From the NCBI RefSeq assembly GCF_017313765.1, contig NZ_JAFLNC010000002.1, forward strand, positions 496,001-560,000: DNA of 64,000 bases, written 5' to 3'. This DNA comes from Sneathiella sedimenti. GTDB taxonomy: Bacteria; Pseudomonadota; Alphaproteobacteria; Sneathiellales; Sneathiellaceae. Numbering within the stretch: the stretch's first letter is position 1; every line of letters starts with the position of its first letter. This document shows, one piece after another, positions 4,695 to 49,789 of this stretch. The position numbers were made by a program, and so were the translations under genes. The notes beneath the pieces were generated by a model. That model was given only the letters and a program-made list of their open reading frames with translations, made no database searches and was not told the DNA's origin.

Positions 4695-7600
4695 TGCGGT
4701 TACCCGATCTCGCCATTAAACGTCCGGTTCTGGCCATCGTTTTTTCGGCGGTTCTGGTCCTTTTCGGCCTGTTTTCCTATCAATCCCTGAGCGTTCGTGA
4801 ATATCCGGATATCGACAGCCCGAACGTCTCGATCCAGACCGGTTATCGGGGCGCGTCGGCGGAAATTATCGAAAGCCAGATAACCCAGGTGATCGAGGAT
4901 GCGGTTGCCGGAATCAGCGGTGTTGAGCGTATTTCCTCCACCAGTCGCGAGGAATATTCGACAGTCAATGTGGAGTTTGCGCTCAGTCGGGATATCGAAT
5001 CTGCAACGAACGATGTGCGTGACCGGATTTCCCGCGTTGTCAACCAACTGCCTGAAGAGGCAGATTCCCCGCGCATCTCAAAGTCCGAGAGTGACGCCCG
5101 GCCGATCCTCTGGTTGTCGCTGACCAGCAACCGGTTGAACCAGCTGGAACTGACCGATTATGCGGAGCGGAACCTTGTCGATCCCCTGTCGACCGTGGAT
5201 GGTGTCGCGCAGATTCGTATCGGCGGGGCCCGCCGCTATGCCATGCGAATATGGCTCAATACGTCGGCCATGGCGGCGCGCGGCATAACGATTTCCGATA
5301 TTGAATATGCCATTCGCGAACAGAATGTCCAGATTCCCTCCGGCCGGATTGAATCGAACATGCGTGAATTCAGCATCAAGACGCAGTCCGACCTGAGAAC
5401 GCCCGAGGAATTCCGCCAGATCATCGTCTATGATTATGGGGAAGGGCGGGTGCGGCTCGGGGACGTGGCCGAGGTTGAGGTCGCCGCGGAGAATGACCGC
5501 ACAAACCTTCGGGTGAACGGACAATCGGCTATTGGCCTCGGCGTGATCCGGCAATCCGGCGCCAATGTGCTGGAAGTTGCCAATGGGGCGAAAAAGATTG
5601 TCGCGCAGTTGCAGAACAATCTCCCCCCTGGCCTGAATATCAAGGTGTCCTACGACCAGTCGGTCTTTATCAGCCAGTCAATCAAGGAAGTGTTCTTTGC
5701 CCTCGGCATTGCCATGGTGCTGGTTATCCTGGTCATTTTCTTCTTTTTGCGATCAATTGCGGCGACCTTTATCCCGGCCGTCGCCATTCCGGTGTCGATC
5801 ATTGCCACGCTGACCATCCTTGGCGCGCTCGATTATTCGGTGAATGTGCTGACTTTGCTCGCCCTGGTGCTGGCAATCGGCCTTGTCGTGGATGACGCGA
5901 TTGTCGTGTTGGAGAATATTCACCGCCGTATCGAGGAGGGGGAGCCGCCGCTTCTCGCCGCGAGCCGGGGGGCGAAGCAGGTGGCGTTCGCCGTGGTAGC
6001 GACGACGATCGTCTTGATCGCTGTCTTTATCCCGATATCCTTTCTTGATGGCACGACGGGCCGTCTGTTCCGGGAATTCGGTGTTGCCGTTGCCGCCGCA
6101 GTGATGTTTTCCTCCTTCGTTGCGTTGACCCTGACACCGATGCTCTGCTCGAAGCTGCTGGTAGAGGCGAACAAGGAAGGCTGGTTCTATAAGTCAACTG
6201 AACGGCTTTTTACTGGCCTCGCTAGAATGTACGGAAGCGCTCTGAAATGGACGCTGAAAATACCGTTTGTGATCGTGGCGATCGCCATCGGATTCTCGGC
6301 GTTGGCCTTTAATTTTTATGAGATTATCCCCAAGGAGTTTGCTCCGACGGAAGATCGCGGTGTCTTTTACATGCCCGTGAAGGGCCCTGAAGGGGCCACC
6401 ATGGAGTATACGCGCAATAACGTCGACAAGGTGGAGGCTGTCCTGAAACCTCTCCAGGAAAGCGGGGAGGCGTCTCGGCTTTTTGCCTTCCTTGGCACTT
6501 TCCGCCAGCCGGGACCCGTGAATGAGGCGTTCATGCTGGTCGGGCTCGTCCCCTGGGAAAAGCGGGAACGCTCACAGCAGGAAATCGTCAATGAGGTATT
6601 TCCCAAGCTGCTCGCCATCCCCGGCGTCCGGGTTTATGCGATCAATCCGGCCAGTCTCGGCCAGCGGGGATTTTCCGCGCCGGTCCAGGTTATTGTGGGA
6701 GGTCCGTCCTATGACGTGATCAATGAGTGGGTGGATCGGGTGATTGCGCGTGCGGAGGAGAATCCGCAACTGCTTAACGTCGACAAGGATTTTGAGGAAA
6801 CCCAGCCGCAGATTCATGTGGAAATTGACCGGGCCCGTGCCTCCAATCTCGGAGTCACCATCGAGACCATTGGCCGGACGCTGGAAACCCTGATGGGCGC
6901 GCGGAACGTCACCACCTATGATCAGGGGGGCAAGCAGTATGAAGTGATCGTTCAGGCCCGAAAAGAGGACCGCAGCAGCCGGGATGATCTGTCAAACGTC
7001 TATGTCCGCTCCGAGGTGGCTGACAAGCTCATTCCGATTTCGGGGTTCGTGACTTTGAGTGAGGAGGCAGGGCCGGGTGAACTTAATCGCACGGACCGGT
7101 TGCGCACGGTCCAGATTTCGGCATCGCTTGGACCCGACTATACGCTGGAAGAGGCCCTTAACTACCTGGAGACCATCATCCGGGAAGAAGCCGGGGAAGA
7201 CGCGAAAATCTCCTATGGCGGACTCAGCCGATCCTACAAGGATTCCAACCAGGCGCTGATCTTTACCTTTGTCACCGCACTTCTGGTGGTGTTTCTAGCC
7301 CTTGCCGCGCAGTTCGAAAGCTTCATCCATCCGATGATCATCATGACGACGGTGCCTCTGGCGATTACGGGGGCGCTCGGCTCGATCCTGCTGGCCGGAT
7401 TGACGCTCAATATCTACAGCCAGATCGGGATGATCATGCTGATCGGGTTGACGGCGAAAAACGCGATCCTGATTGTCGAGTTCGCCAACCAGCTCCGGGA
7501 TGAGGGCGCCGATATCCTCTCTGCAATTCAGGAAGCAGCGATTATCCGGCTCCGGCCCATCCTGATGACGACGATTTCAACGGCGCTGGGGGCAGTGCCG

Positions 7601-42605: not shown

Positions 42606-42634
42606 AGAAATGGTCGGGGTGAGAGGATTCGAAC
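42606..42634 (+). repeat. att left: 29-base direct repeat, truncated copy of tRNA-Pro 3' end
   Basis: Identical over 29 bases with 49708-49736; the next base differs (T here, C at the tRNA). It includes the CCA and acceptor 3' half plus part of the T arm of tRNA-Pro on the minus strand. Confidence 0.93.
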
Positions 42635-43677: not shown

Positions 43678-44676
43678 ATGACAATGACCAAAAAGGTAAT
43701 TAGGGCGAACATACACAGGTATATTAAGAGTGGGAAGTTGGTCGCTGTTTATGGTGCGGTTAAGGGCGTGGGTGTAACTGTGCTCGAGTTATCCGATGAT
43801 ATGACCGCTATCACTAAAATACGAACTCCTAAATACCTACAGTACAGCAAACTAGCTCCGACAAAATATTTGCTCGAGATTGAGGAGACGCCTCTGCCTG
43901 ACAATATGCGATCAATCCACCGCATAAGAACTTTGACAGAGGCCGATACGGAAAAAAAACGTTGGGCGAAAACAGAGTCACTTGAAGACTTACCTGTATC
44001 ACCTCATGAGGAAGTTACAGAAGAGGAATTAGTTTGGGCAGGGAAAAGGGAAGGTAATCTATTTTGCAAAGCCGTTTTAGTATTGGTTTCTGGTGTAACA
44101 GCATATTGGGCATACTCTGGTCTCTCTGAGAATGGCTACTATAGTTTATATTGGTTGTTAGCCACAGCAATTGCTGGCTGGTTTTGCATTGTAGTTCCTT
44201 GGAAGTTCTCTAAAGCGCCAAAGGAAGAAAAACTTGCTCAGTTGAAGGAGTATAAATCATGGCTTCGGCAAAAGGCTAGTGATCGTGACTTGGCCTTTTT
44301 AACAGACTTTGAGAGATCTCTAAAAGACTATTCTACTTGGAAAAATCTGTCTCCTATGGAGTTTGAATTTGCGATATCACTTAGGCTGAACAATGAAGGC
44401 TATAGTACTAAGGTTACGCAATACTCCAATGATGGTGGTATAGATTTGGAAGGCTTTGATAATCATGGCAATCCAGTAATTGTGCAGGTAAAACAATTTA
44501 ATAACAAAGTAGGTGTTGCTGTGGTCCGGGAGATGATTGGTATCAGAAAGAATCGTAATGAAAATCCGAGGACAATTATTTATTCACTATTAGGATTTAC
44601 TAGGGGGGCTATAGATTTGGCTCAGAAGGAAAATATTGAGCTGCGAAATATAAAAGCAGAAATACTAGATGTATAA
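43678..44676 (+). CDS. membrane-anchored Mrr-type restriction endonuclease-like protein
   Basis: A 332-residue protein with two membrane helices (about 127-146 and 152-172) and a C-terminal PD-(D/E)xK nuclease domain of Mrr type. Catalytic set: E228/E230 in SPMEFEFAISLRL, D256 in NDGGIDLEG, and Q270-x-K272 in IVQVKQF, which is the QxK variant of the Mrr catalytic core, followed by VGVAVVREMIGI. The nuclease is thus tethered to the membrane with the catalytic domain likely in the cytoplasm. GAGGAAAAACA precedes the ATG. No methyltransferase is adjacent, so it is probably a modification-dependent or membrane-triggered nuclease. Confidence 0.85.
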   Translation: MTMTKKVIRANIHRYIKSGKLVAVYGAVKGVGVTVLELSDDMTAITKIRTPKYLQYSKLAPTKYLLEIEETPLPDNMRSIHRIRTLTEADTEKKRWAKTESLEDLPVSPHEEVTEEELVWAGKREGNLFCKAVLVLVSGVTAYWAYSGLSENGYYSLYWLLATAIAGWFCIVVPWKFSKAPKEEKLAQLKEYKSWLRQKASDRDLAFLTDFERSLKDYSTWKNLSPMEFEFAISLRLNNEGYSTKVTQYSNDGGIDLEGFDNHGNPVIVQVKQFNNKVGVAVVREMIGIRKNRNENPRTIIYSLLGFTRGAIDLAQKENIELRNIKAEILDV

Positions 44677-44777: not shown

Positions 44778-45323
44778 TCAGTATTTCAAGATACGATAAA
44801 CTGAAGCTCTGCCAATCCCAAGTTCTTTGGCGATCTCAGTAGGTTTCTTCCCTTCACGTACGAGCTTATTCACTTCATCCGCTTTCGCCCTCGCAGTAGG
44901 TTTCCGCCCCTTGTATTTCCCTTCACTCTTAGCCTTGGCTATACCCTCTCTCTGTCTTTCCAGCATGATCTGTCTCTCAAACTGGCTAACTGCTCCGAGT
45001 AGGTTTAGCACAAGCTCTCCAGTAGCATTGCTTGTATCTATCCCGAGGTTGAGAATTTGTAGGTGAGCGCCCTTGGCCTTTATGGCCTCAACGATTTCCC
45101 CAAGGTGCCTCATAGAGCGGGCTAGGCGGTCTAACTTGGTTACCACCAGGCTATCGCCCTCCCTTAGGTAATCAAGGGCCTGTGAGAGCTCCTGACGCTC
45201 TTCTACAGACGATACCTGCTCCTTGTAGACCTTCTCGCAGCCGTGAGCCTTAAGCTCCTCTAACTGGGCTTCGAAGCCCGCGACCTGTTCAAGAGTCGAC
45301 GTTCTTGCATAACCAACCTTCAT
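44778..45323 (-). CDS. serine recombinase (resolvase/invertase family)
   Basis: A 181-residue small serine recombinase of the Tn3-resolvase/Hin/Gin class. Nucleophile S9 in GYARTSTLEQ, the motif DSLVVTKLDRLARSMRHL, and the C-terminal helix-turn-helix VNKLVREGKKPTEIAKELGIGRASVYRILKY. I start at the ATG at 45323; the upstream TTG at 45389 belongs to a TTGACA promoter box. It could invert a segment of the element or resolve a cointegrate. No matching inverted target pair was found. Confidence 0.93.
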   Translation of the reverse strand: MKVGYARTSTLEQVAGFEAQLEELKAHGCEKVYKEQVSSVEERQELSQALDYLREGDSLVVTKLDRLARSMRHLGEIVEAIKAKGAHLQILNLGIDTSNATGELVLNLLGAVSQFERQIMLERQREGIAKAKSEGKYKGRKPTARAKADEVNKLVREGKKPTEIAKELGIGRASVYRILKY

Positions 45324-45359
45324 GATCACATAATCCCCGCATGTACCAATAGATTCAAG

Positions 45360-45389
45360 ACTATGTGAGATTATTGTCTCAAATGTCAA
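45360..45389 (-). promoter_or_regulatory. sigma-70-like promoter and operator of the serine recombinase
   Basis: TTGACA (45389-45384), 18-base spacer, CATAGT (45365-45360). The spacer holds the inverted repeat TGAGAN6TCTCA (45366-45381), with a further GTCTCA on the minus strand at 45407-45402. Such a cluster around the promoter suggests autoregulation or a recombination (res-like) site. Confidence 0.5.
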
Positions 45390-45482
45390 ATACTATTTAT
45401 ATGAGACACTATCGGGATGCGATTAAACTGTATCAATAGGGCAGGAGCCAATGGGAATGCACAATGCTCAATATTGCTAGTG

Positions 45483-45677
45483 CTAGAGAGTTCCCTTAAA
45501 ACGCCGAATAACGCCTCTCGCGTTGTATCGCCACCGGTGATCACTGGGCGAGCAAGGCATAAACACGGTACCTTGCTGACACCTTACTGCCCAATGTTTG
45601 CCGCGTGACTCAGTCCCTAATATGGTAAGCCCTTCTTCCGCACACAACTTGATGCACTCTCTAAAATGCTTACGCAT
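45483..45677 (-). CDS. small protein, HicA-like
   Basis: A 64-residue protein with RGKHWAVRCQQGTVFMPCSPSDHRWRYNARGVIRRF, a His-containing strand and RxxIRR-type helix reminiscent of HicA-like RNA-binding toxins and small phage proteins. GGAGGG lies eight bases before its ATG at 45677, which supports a real gene. No HicB partner is next to it, so toxin function is unproven. The RAMA-like gene at 45693 begins 15 bases away on the same strand. Confidence 0.5.
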   Translation of the reverse strand: MRKHFRECIKLCAEEGLTILGTESRGKHWAVRCQQGTVFMPCSPSDHRWRYNARGVIRRFKGTL

Positions 45678-45692
45678 TTTGTTACCCTCCCC

Positions 45693-46160
45693 CTAGCCGC
45701 GAAGATCGTTGGCGAACTTCCAACCACCTTCCCCTGGAAAGTTAATATAGATGTCGCGCCAAGCATTACGACTAGTGTTATTGGCGACCTTTCGAGCAAA
45801 TTCTGATGGCGTCACACTGTCTCCATTGAAGAGCAATTTTTCATGATGAACTTCAGCATAATAATGGGTGCCGCGATAGGTCATACGTATGCGTGTTCCG
45901 TTAGGTAAGAACACTTTCTGCCATTGAAACCCCCTGTTAGGATTTCCGTATTTGTCCAGATATTCTTCATCCTGTTGCTCGGTGTGTTTTTCTATATATT
46001 CCGCCGACCAAATATTCGGATCTCCTTCAGTTGCCTCAAGAAATCCCTCAATCTGATTTTCAATGTAGTTCGCCACATTGGCACGCCCTGAGCGCCGAAC
46101 AAGTTCAGCATACAAGTCTACATGGAGGGGGACGTAAATGTAATCTGTTGGCTGCGTCAT
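45693..46160 (-). CDS. RAMA/DUF4357-like protein of unknown function
   Basis: A 155-residue protein. The C-terminal half NGTRIRMTYRGTHYYAEVHHEKLLFNGDSVTPSEFARKVANNTSRNAWRDIYI has the small beta-hairpin plus SPSEFA helix of the RAMA/DUF4357 domains, which are found next to restriction or methylation systems. The N-terminal helix region (YVPLHVDLYAELVRRSGRANVANYIENQIEGFL) looks like a ribbon-helix-helix DNA-binding segment. It is transcribed from a promoter overlapping the four repeats at 46176-46254, so it is a good candidate for the repeat-binding autoregulator. Confidence 0.6.
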   Translation of the reverse strand: MTQPTDYIYVPLHVDLYAELVRRSGRANVANYIENQIEGFLEATEGDPNIWSAEYIEKHTEQQDEEYLDKYGNPNRGFQWQKVFLPNGTRIRMTYRGTHYYAEVHHEKLLFNGDSVTPSEFARKVANNTSRNAWRDIYINFPGEGGWKFANDLRG

Positions 46161-46175
46161 GATTGATCTCCATTG

Positions 46176-46254
46176 CTGTTAATAGTCCATAATAGAACTG
46201 TAAATAGCAAAAAAGGAATATACTGTCAATAGGCAGATTGAGAACTGTGAATAG
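46176..46254. repeat. four iteron-like CTGTNAATAG repeats
   Basis: Copies at 46176-46185 (CTGTTAATAG), 46198-46207 (CTGTAAATAG), 46223-46232 (CTGTCAATAG) and 46245-46254 (CTGTGAATAG). They are in direct orientation with start-to-start spacing of 22, 25 and 22 bases, about two turns of the helix. Only the fifth base varies, and it takes all four nucleotides. Confidence 0.9.
46201..46229 (-). promoter_or_regulatory. promoter overlapping two of the iteron-like repeats
   Basis: TTGACA (46229-46224), exact 17-base spacer, TATTTA (46206-46201), reading toward the 46160 gene. The -35 box lies inside the third repeat and the -10 box inside the second, so a repeat-binding protein would cover the promoter. 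Confidence 0.6.
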
Positions 46255-46623
46255 TAATTAATTCATGGCTGGCAAATCCAGTTAAAATTTGTGCTTGAAG
46301 TTTAGTCTGCAAAGTAAGATTTGGATATCATCTCGGCAATTTCTTGGGAGTCCAACGGCACTTAGCCTCACGCTAGGAAACCTTGTGTAGTTCTAATGAA
46401 GTAGGGGGGTATGGGGGAAACTGACAAATGGGCAAGAGGCAATATGCCCTCATGAGTTTTTCTGTTAAAAATAATCGGTTCCTACACTAAAGAAACTTTA
46501 CTGTTTGTGACCTTCTAGAAGCCGCAGCTATCATAGAGTTTCCACGTTTCCTCCCTAGTAGAGTAAAGAAACATGGAAACTCCTGCTCCGGCTTAAGCAC
46601 CGGAGCCCACAAATGAGCTGCAA

Positions 46624-47628
46624 CTAAAAGTCATCTAGCCCTTCATCATCTTCTTTTACGCTCTTGGCTTCATCGAAACAGGTGTCGACCTCCTCCCTTG
46701 TTATCAGGTTTGCTTCATAGGCCTTCTTAAGCTGCTTCGACACCTCCCCCTTGGACCAGCCAAGGCCCTCGGCCACTTCTCTTTGATTGGTATAATTACG
46801 TGTCCGTATTGCCCGAGCGACATCATATGCTTTCCCTACCGCGAGTATATCGTAACTCCATCGACCATCTTCATCCAACTGGACGCCACGAGTTTCAGTC
46901 TCAGCCGACCTCATTCCCCTGTACTTCTGAAAGACCACCTTAAATGAGGCTCCGCCAGACGACTGGGCTCCTTCGGGCGCTTCTAGCATTATGTTTGAAC
47001 TTAAGAGAACACTCAGGATTTGAGAGCCCCTATAACCATCACTATTTACACTATTCCCCTTCCGGCTATGGTGAACCATAATCGGGGTGCATCCCAGCCT
47101 TTTGATCTTTCTCAGGAGTTCGTTTACCGGACGCCATGCTGATGCATCATTTTCGTTCTCTACTCCAGCCAGCGTCGATAGATTGTCTAGGATGACTAAG
47201 TCTATCTTTTCATTCTTAATCCGATTGATGATCCTTTGATGGTCGTCTGGTTCCGCTAGATCGGGCCAGTTCACATTGTCCGCTTGACCTTGAAAGGGTA
47301 AAAAGGAAAGGTTCGAGCTTGCTGCCTTGAGGTCTAGATTTTCAATGGATCCTGAAAGCAATATAGCTCTATCCCTGAGATCACTCATATCCATCTCTCC
47401 GTCGACAATTAGAACTTTGCTACAACCGTCAGCTTTCCAGCCCAGGTATTCTCCGCCTCCTGCAACTGCGATAGCAATAGACATTGCAAACATGGATTTA
47501 CCCACGCCGCTAGGGGCATAGATCATATTAATTTGCTGGTTTGTCAGCCAACTACCAAGCAATGGTTTGGGGTTAGGGATGTCAGTATTCATTAGTTCGC
47601 CCATGGTTTGATAGGTGAGGTCTGTCAT
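46624..47628 (-). CDS. RepA-like AAA ATPase (plasmid replication helicase-like)
   Basis: A 334-residue RecA-fold ATPase of the AAA_25/RepA-helicase group. Walker A IYAPSGVGKSMFAMSIAIAVAGGGEYLGW starting at 36, Walker B LVILDNLSTLAG, and motif CTPIMVHHSRKGNSVNSDGYRGSQIL, which is the RepA/DnaB-type segment. A C-terminal winged-helix-like part (TNQREVAEGLGWSKGEVSKQLKKAYEANL) probably binds DNA. It supports autonomous replication of the excised element. A ribosome site AAGGAAAAGC precedes its ATG. The four repeats lie 370-450 bases downstream of its stop. Confidence 0.85.
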   Translation of the reverse strand: MTDLTYQTMGELMNTDIPNPKPLLGSWLTNQQINMIYAPSGVGKSMFAMSIAIAVAGGGEYLGWKADGCSKVLIVDGEMDMSDLRDRAILLSGSIENLDLKAASSNLSFLPFQGQADNVNWPDLAEPDDHQRIINRIKNEKIDLVILDNLSTLAGVENENDASAWRPVNELLRKIKRLGCTPIMVHHSRKGNSVNSDGYRGSQILSVLLSSNIMLEAPEGAQSSGGASFKVVFQKYRGMRSAETETRGVQLDEDGRWSYDILAVGKAYDVARAIRTRNYTNQREVAEGLGWSKGEVSKQLKKAYEANLITREEVDTCFDEAKSVKEDDEGLDDF

Positions 47629-48284: not shown

Positions 48285-49637
48285 CTAGCTTTTCCATATT
48301 GCGCTTAGTTCCCCTAGTTCCGGATCAATCTTCTTGATGTACTCGAGTATCCTATCTTCGTCTTGATATCCTCTGTTATAGACAGAAGATGCTAGAGTAG
48401 GTAGGGAATGCCCCATTAGGCGCGCCCAGTGGATCGGATTGGTCCCAGCTTTTTCACAAGCAATGCTGAAGGCTCGTCTCAAGGAATGAAAATCTACTGG
48501 CTCGTCTTTTAGAGCTTCACGCCGAAGCCGGTTTATTACTTTCTGTAGTCGCTCGTATCGCTTGCCGCCTCGCTTAGCGGGTTTTACATCTGCGAAAATA
48601 GGGTGCTCCGGATCGGCGCTGCTGCGCCTTCTAAGCACATCTAATGCCTCCTCGCTTATGACAGGCATGACGCGTTCATTGTTATCGGTCTTTCCTCCAG
48701 TAATATGGAGCCAAATGCATCCTCTACCTTTGTCTACTTTAAGTTTTCCAGAGGTGAGACTACAGATATCTTCAGCTCGTACTCCAGTATGCCACCCTAG
48801 AATAATCATATCGATCATTGCTTGGCTATATTTGCTTGAAGATGCTTTTGCAGCCTCGATCCACACCTGAGCTTCCCTTTTTGTCAGCGCCCTTTTCTGT
48901 ACCCTGCTTTCTCTGATGCTGCTAACGGTCCTGTATTGCCTTCGCCATATGTCAGTCTTTCCCTCCTCAATCAATTGATAATGGTCCAACCATTCCCAGA
49001 ACCCGATTAACGCTGTAATTTTCTTTTTTAGTGTACGGACGGCTAGTAGTTTTCCCGTCTTGTTGCTTGGGGTTTCTTTAAGAAACGCTATGAACGAGCT
49101 GGCAGTATTTCTATCAATATCCTGTACTGGTATATCGTTACTCCAAGCTTTAAAGGCTTCCACGGTGGTCCTATAGTCGTCAACGGTATGGCCTTTTCGG
49201 CCATCTCTCATGATCTCGTTCAGCCAATTTTCGGCATGAACGGAAACAGGGACGGCTTGCTTGGTAGCAATCCTGTAATAAGCCTGTGCGGCTGTTAGGC
49301 CCTTTCGCTGCTCGTAAGCGGCCGCAAAATCACTAATGATAAAAGGATGCTCTTCATTCTTGGGATCATAGTCCTTGGCGAGCTCTAAGGGGTCTGGAAT
49401 TTCGTTTTTATCGAGCGCTGCTAAAGCGGAGTTGATCTGACCTATTGCGTCAAGCTTTCGCTTGTTGGCTTCCGCAAGGTCCCTTGTCCCAAGGCCTCTA
49501 ACGATTTCCTTCTTAATGCCTGAGGTGGACCCGAAATGCGCTGCGGCTTTCTTCTGGAGTCGTTTGGGGACGGTAACAACTACGGCCCAGCCTTTGCCGC
49601 GTTTCCTGAGGTATCTTGTGTTCATATCGTCGCTCAT
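48285..49637 (-). CDS. tyrosine recombinase integrase (tRNA-associated)
   Basis: A 450-residue phage-type integrase. N-terminal domain of DUF6538 type (RYLRKRGKGWAVVVTVPKRLQKKAAAHFG), SAM-like core-binding region about 120-215, then the catalytic domain: Arg in WHTGVRAEDICSLT, HxxR in FHSLRRAFSIACEKAG, GH in MGHSLPTLASSVYNRG with nucleophile Tyr. The ATG at 49637 is chosen; a TTG at 49658 also exists but is further into the att side. It is 70 bases from the tRNA-Pro repeat, which is its expected attachment site. It overlaps with the candidate arm site at 49638. Confidence 0.95.
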   Translation of the reverse strand: MSDDMNTRYLRKRGKGWAVVVTVPKRLQKKAAAHFGSTSGIKKEIVRGLGTRDLAEANKRKLDAIGQINSALAALDKNEIPDPLELAKDYDPKNEEHPFIISDFAAAYEQRKGLTAAQAYYRIATKQAVPVSVHAENWLNEIMRDGRKGHTVDDYRTTVEAFKAWSNDIPVQDIDRNTASSFIAFLKETPSNKTGKLLAVRTLKKKITALIGFWEWLDHYQLIEEGKTDIWRRQYRTVSSIRESRVQKRALTKREAQVWIEAAKASSSKYSQAMIDMIILGWHTGVRAEDICSLTSGKLKVDKGRGCIWLHITGGKTDNNERVMPVISEEALDVLRRRSSADPEHPIFADVKPAKRGGKRYERLQKVINRLRREALKDEPVDFHSLRRAFSIACEKAGTNPIHWARLMGHSLPTLASSVYNRGYQDEDRILEYIKKIDPELGELSAIWKS

Positions 49638-49648
49638 ACATGTAAGGT
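49638..49648. promoter_or_regulatory. integrase arm-type site at right end (inverted copy of left site)
   Basis: ACATGTAAGGT, the reverse complement of ACCTTACATGT at 42707-42717. It lies immediately before the integrase start. An 11-base match at both ends of a 7 kb element is unlikely by chance within 100 bases of each att. Confidence 0.5.
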
Positions 49649-49707
49649 TACAGTACAAATCCCTACACGTACAATCGAAATTATATGAATAACATCAATA
49701 TCTTAGA

Positions 49708-49789
<82 letters not shown>

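Follow-up and report, generated by a model that had tools for sequence, protein, structure and literature searches.

The window, by which we mean the whole 64-kb stretch of Sneathiella sedimenti DNA that was analyzed, contains a 7.1-kb element at tRNA-Pro(CGG) (49713 to 49789, minus strand), its integration target. The element is bracketed by identical 29-nt att repeats, one on the tRNA side (49708 to 49736) and the other on the distal side (42606 to 42634, 100% identical). Its content includes a tyrosine integrase (48285 to 49658), a RepA-like AAA_25 ATPase related to the RSF1010-type RepA helicase (46624 to 47628), a 155-aa regulator (45693 to 46160), a 64-aa HicA-like protein (45483 to 45677) that starts 15 nt after the regulator, and a serine recombinase/resolvase (44778 to 45389), all encoded on the minus strand, along with an Mrr-type endonuclease and unknown proteins. 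Many relatives of the genus keep the right flank in synteny at tRNA-Pro but do not have the left flank beside it, so the left end of the element is placed by the repeat alone, and an empty tRNA-Pro site is only half shown.

Upstream of the regulator gene, CTGTNAATAG occurs four times without a mismatch, at positions 46176, 46198, 46223, and 46245 (array 46176 to 46254). The copy spacing is 22/25/22 and N is T, A, C, and G in turn, exactly as claimed in a preliminary description of this DNA, which had noted four repeats whose variable base takes all four nucleotides. There was no further exact copy in the 64-kb window, and across the whole 3.58-Mb genome the paired CTGTNAATAG pattern was found at the array locus only. 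Four-copy clusters of any one-wildcard decamer were absent from 20 shuffles of the window and from 3000 dinucleotide shuffles of the local 230 bp; the array is far beyond chance. In IMG/VR, the exact two-box pattern returned 33 stretches that were coding- or tandem-repeat-like on inspection, and no related array.

Each box is a pseudo-palindrome, CTRT-NN-AYAG, and all 4 occurrences of CTRTNNAYAG in the 64 kb fall inside the array, which sits 16 to 94 bp ahead of the 155-aa gene. In the orientation of that gene (minus strand), the boxes read CTATTNACAG, with starts at -94, -72, -47, and -25 relative to the ATG. These are box 1 (CTATTCACAG, 46245 to 46254, -94 to -85), box 2 (CTATTGACAG, 46223 to 46232, holding the predicted -35 hexamer), box 3 (CTATTTACAG, 46198 to 46207, holding the predicted -10 hexamer), and box 4 (CTATTAACAG, 46176 to 46185, -25 to -16).

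The alphaproteobacterial promoter consensus is CTTGAC-N17-CTATAT (PMC2873474). Compared with it, ATTGAC (46230 to 46225), followed after 17 nt by CTATTT (46207 to 46202), matches at 5/6 and 5/6 positions, and we predict a minus-strand promoter here (46202 to 46230) whose elements sit inside boxes 2 and 3. The consensus TTGACA and TATTTA boxes described earlier thus stand as a predicted promoter of the alphaproteobacterial type, but as an E. coli -10, TATTTA falls short of the consensus, with three of six positions matching. This poor fit explains why the TTGACA/TATTTA pair was absent from the list given by an E. coli-style promoter scan. A transcription start near 46195, as this prediction would have it, would set box 4 just downstream and box 1 upstream of the -35.

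No Pfam or NCBIfam model matched the 155-aa window protein, which is predicted to consist of a ribbon-helix-helix-like N-terminal domain and a C-terminal RAMA/CcrM-like domain. In the monomer model (mean pLDDT, 88), helices at residues 14 to 24 and 29 to 44 lie in ribbon-helix-helix register, and the segment ahead of the first helix is able to form a dimer strand. This predicted fold fits the ribbon-helix-helix-like N terminus previously suggested for the protein, for which region neither a family model nor a PDB match was found. For the C-terminal beta domain, the best PDB match was CcrM (6pbd; probability, 0.99; E = 0.054). Weak matches to Pfam RAMA were seen in 9 of 18 family members (best E = 6e-4), the window protein not among them, and a profile search of the PDB gave as its sole match an anti-CRISPR protein (E = 0.58). 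The weak Pfam matches and the structural match to CcrM liken this domain to known RAMA domains (the CcrM C-terminal domain and MPND), but here it is joined to a ribbon-helix-helix-like domain, and the whole is a small stand-alone regulator bearing the signature T-[SNA]-RNAW-x-D. Published RAMA domains touch the DNA backbone but do not read the bases (PMC9963953), which would leave recognition of specific bases to the N-terminal domain. Two uncharacterized PADLOC candidates, PDC-S57 and PDC-S14, also weakly matched 5 and 4 family members, respectively; on the window protein, PDC-S57 aligns with residues 54 to 134 only, the C-terminal part.

Relatives of the regulator were identified at 17 loci besides the window, for which an alignment-based search was needed; single-sequence searches of genome, viral, and phage collections found nothing. 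These relatives are mostly from alphaproteobacteria, with one Rhodocyclales bin, two viral contigs, and one Rhizobium plasmid. W80, G88, Y95, and T-x-RNAW-x-D are invariant in all 18 aligned members.

We then compared the 150 bp upstream of 17 family genes, consisting of the 16 relatives with usable starts and the window. The top-ranked 5-mer was CTATT/AATAG, with 30 observed occurrences against 7.6 expected from shuffles, and it was still the top 5-mer when the window was left out (25 versus 6.8 expected). At least two CTATT copies were present in 9/17 family promoters (window included) versus 2/90 intergenic controls from the same loci. The enrichment was strong by rank test (p of about 4e-10, and 6e-9 once the window and its closest relative were removed), although these p values overstate independence because the homologues are related. 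Some of the signal may also be promoter sequence, given how similar CTATT is to the alphaproteobacterial -10, although promoters taken as controls from the same genomes lack it.

In L047, the nearest relative (65% identity), four boxes that each match at 7/8 positions or better lie at -89, -67, -41, and -19, with a spacing of 22/26/22, where 0.07 such boxes are expected by chance per 130 bp. Two of its four boxes are inverted, which is compatible with a pseudo-palindrome. Because MAFFT did not keep the two upstream regions in register, the boxes were compared by position: between the window and L047, they match at 7 to 10 of 10 bases, whereas 13/39 positions agree between boxes. Beyond this relative, a single full box is seen in each of L052 and L060, the ten-base palindrome is mostly reduced to a CTATT/CTAT core, and no CTATT was found upstream of the L048 and L058 genes. 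The operator sequence thus seems to drift with the protein. Conservation of the repeats upstream of homologous genes, on which the preliminary description had staked its reading, was in this way found both as an enriched core and, in L047, as a four-box array.

Because the boxes, and in L047 also their spacing, recur before related genes, the array is most likely the regulator's own off-switch and not an origin. Four repeated palindromic sites extend from -94 to -16 over the predicted promoter of the regulator gene, and we consider it very probable, judging from sequence, that the array is the autoregulatory operator of the 155-aa regulator, a member of a new two-domain family, which would bind these boxes. 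This was one of two proposals in the preliminary description, and both the core enrichment and the L047 boxes argue for it. If so, a regulator family outside the Pfam and NCBIfam models gains a candidate DNA target with conserved geometry. Alternatively, the serine recombinase, through its helix-turn-helix, or a host protein could read the array, making it the operator of another regulator of the element or host. We regard this as very unlikely, as the core motif accompanies the regulator gene from genome to genome even where the neighbors differ, and the genome of the window contains a single such array.

The other proposal was that the array is the element's origin. Here, the repeats would be iterons bound by RepA or by an unseen initiator, in keeping with their regular 22-bp spacing, the RepA-helicase relative encoded by the element, and the proximity of the repA gene. 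The distance of 370 bases to the RepA-like ATPase given before is correct, but it is measured to the 3' end of repA. RepA of RSF1010 is a helicase and not an iteron binder, and the boxes overlap a predicted promoter. Additionally, none of the 17 regulator loci had a RepA relative within the locus DNA searched, yet most carry the CTATT core. Iterons would be expected to travel with their replication gene, but an element near tRNA-Thr in a genome of the same genus (G005), which has the most similar RepA found (58% identical) and a related serine recombinase, has neither the regulator nor the array. The origin reading is thus unsupported, and we give it very little chance; of the suggestion that the helical spacing is that of iterons or operators, the operator part is supported.

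What the G005 element does keep is an inverted repeat, GAGTTTCCACGTTTC...GAAACATGGAAACTC (46536 to 46582), which lies outside the operator and is linked to repA. Window positions 46522 to 46584 are 90.6% identical to G005, while the repA genes agree at 61% of aligned bases. The 43-bp core of the repeat (46538 to 46580, 3' of repA) occurs as a single, nearly identical copy in three genomes of the genus, in every case next to a repA that is whole or decayed, is better conserved than repA, and was not found in the other genera sampled. Compared with shuffles, the inverted repeat folds better in the window (z of about -4 to -5) and in G004, and less so in G005. A search of viral contigs for RepA found nothing. 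We suggest that this inverted repeat, and not the array, is the better candidate for the origin or for an initiation hairpin, and that the element's origin is best sought at this strongly conserved site. In G004, decayed repA fragments are still beside an intact 43-bp core (L076, 6260 to 6648).

For the array as the regulator's operator, the following mechanism can be proposed. The regulator would repress its own promoter through the array, with dimers formed by the N-terminal ribbon-helix-helix domain each gripping one CTRT-NN-AYAG box. A separation of 22 bp places boxes on the same DNA face, so that neighboring dimers could cooperate within pairs 1-2 and 3-4. With the predicted -35 in box 2 and the predicted -10 in box 3, occupancy of these two boxes would block RNA polymerase. 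The C-terminal RAMA-like domain probably contributes nonspecific DNA or partner contacts. The predicted fold, the repeated short palindromes over its own promoter, and the operon partner are reminiscent of the ribbon-helix-helix autorepressors and antitoxins RelB, YpHicB3, ParD, and CopG, and the main hicAB3 operator of Yersinia pestis also overlaps a -10 box (PMC11594946). Unlike these proteins, the window regulator has a C-terminal RAMA/CcrM-like domain in place of the usual toxin-binding tail. Mechanisms of this kind are well known; what looks new, within the libraries searched, is the architecture of the protein and the geometry of the operator.

Known ribbon-helix-helix partition adaptors bind arrays overlapping their own promoters. 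The same layout could therefore describe a centromere-like partition site, with the regulator as an adaptor of the ParG/omega type and autoregulation as a secondary role. There is only a slight chance of this, in our view, as no cognate ParA/ParM partner was found among the eight element proteins scanned and several regulator homologues adjoin toxin-like genes.

Under the operator reading, a single transcript would carry the regulator and the 64-aa HicA-like protein, probably as an antitoxin-first, toxin-antitoxin-like operon. The pair is found in the window, at L053 (16-nt gap), and at L008 (overlapping). A single-sequence search for the 64-aa protein across 385 genomes of the class returned the window and the L008 genome only, in both cases adjoining the regulator. 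A weak third match came from G171, and plasmids and phages gave no match to the protein. HicA toxins are proteins of 50 to 100 aa, nucleases with a double-stranded RNA-binding domain (dsRBD) fold and a key histidine (PMC11594946). The 64-aa protein is modeled as a helix, three strands, and a helix, G26-K27-H28 is invariant in all three 64-aa proteins, and PADLOC HicA-like matches were obtained for 3/3 of them (best E = 3e-4; E = 7e-4 was also recorded). These features, the invariant histidine among them, liken the pair to HicAB. Pfam HicA did not match the 64-aa protein, and Foldseek gave weak matches only, dsRBDs among them. In HicB, a partial RNase H fold comes first and the DNA-binding domain is C-terminal (PMC11594946), the latter being helix-turn-helix or ribbon-helix-helix. 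The predicted regulator differs in its domain order and in its second domain, and does not fit the HicB pattern.

There was some diversity in the genes next to other family members. At L057, a PIN-domain gene (6648 to 7034; E = 1.5e-13) starts 2 nt after the regulator. Small genes overlap the regulator at L048 (DUF4258-like, E = 0.09) and L055 (DUF4258-like by inspection alone), and L047 has a resolvase (serine recombinase) directly after it. Several relatives have no obvious toxin next to the regulator. At L049, a nucleotidyltransferase/HepT pair (6775 to 7466) lies about 300 bp after the regulator homologue.

The antitoxin-first order, the short gap or overlap, and the repeated pairing are those of type II toxin-antitoxin systems, and the operon looks toxin-antitoxin-like. 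Whether it would also work as such, with toxicity in the 64-aa protein and neutralization by the regulator, we judge to be about an even chance from the gene order and predicted folds. More broadly, these loci might form a new toxin-antitoxin-like class in alphaproteobacterial mobile elements, with a ribbon-helix-helix plus RAMA-like antitoxin that autorepresses via paired CTRT-NN-AYAG boxes and has exchangeable partners (HicA-like, PIN, and perhaps DUF4258-like). This proposal is tentative, and we think it somewhat more apt to fail than to hold. The family also links RAMA-type domains, known from DNA methyltransferases, to small, putatively autoregulated operons with toxin-like partners.

The second densest CTATT/AATAG cluster in the window (45348 to 45439) is located upstream of the serine recombinase, and the 155-aa regulator may also control that gene. 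The Mrr-type endonuclease (43678 to 44676), which has PADLOC matches to PDC-S02 and ZorD nuclease domains, is possibly defense cargo. Elsewhere in the genus, additional copies, either tRNA-Pro-like or of the 3' end, were observed 1 to 5 kb from tRNA-Pro (L081, 474 to 539; G004:C14:94314; G008:C1:1505606), which suggests that the tRNA-Pro site has been repeatedly used for integration. In G006 (L090), a serine recombinase beside the tRNA-Pro region has a C-terminal part 77% identical to that of the window's serine recombinase.
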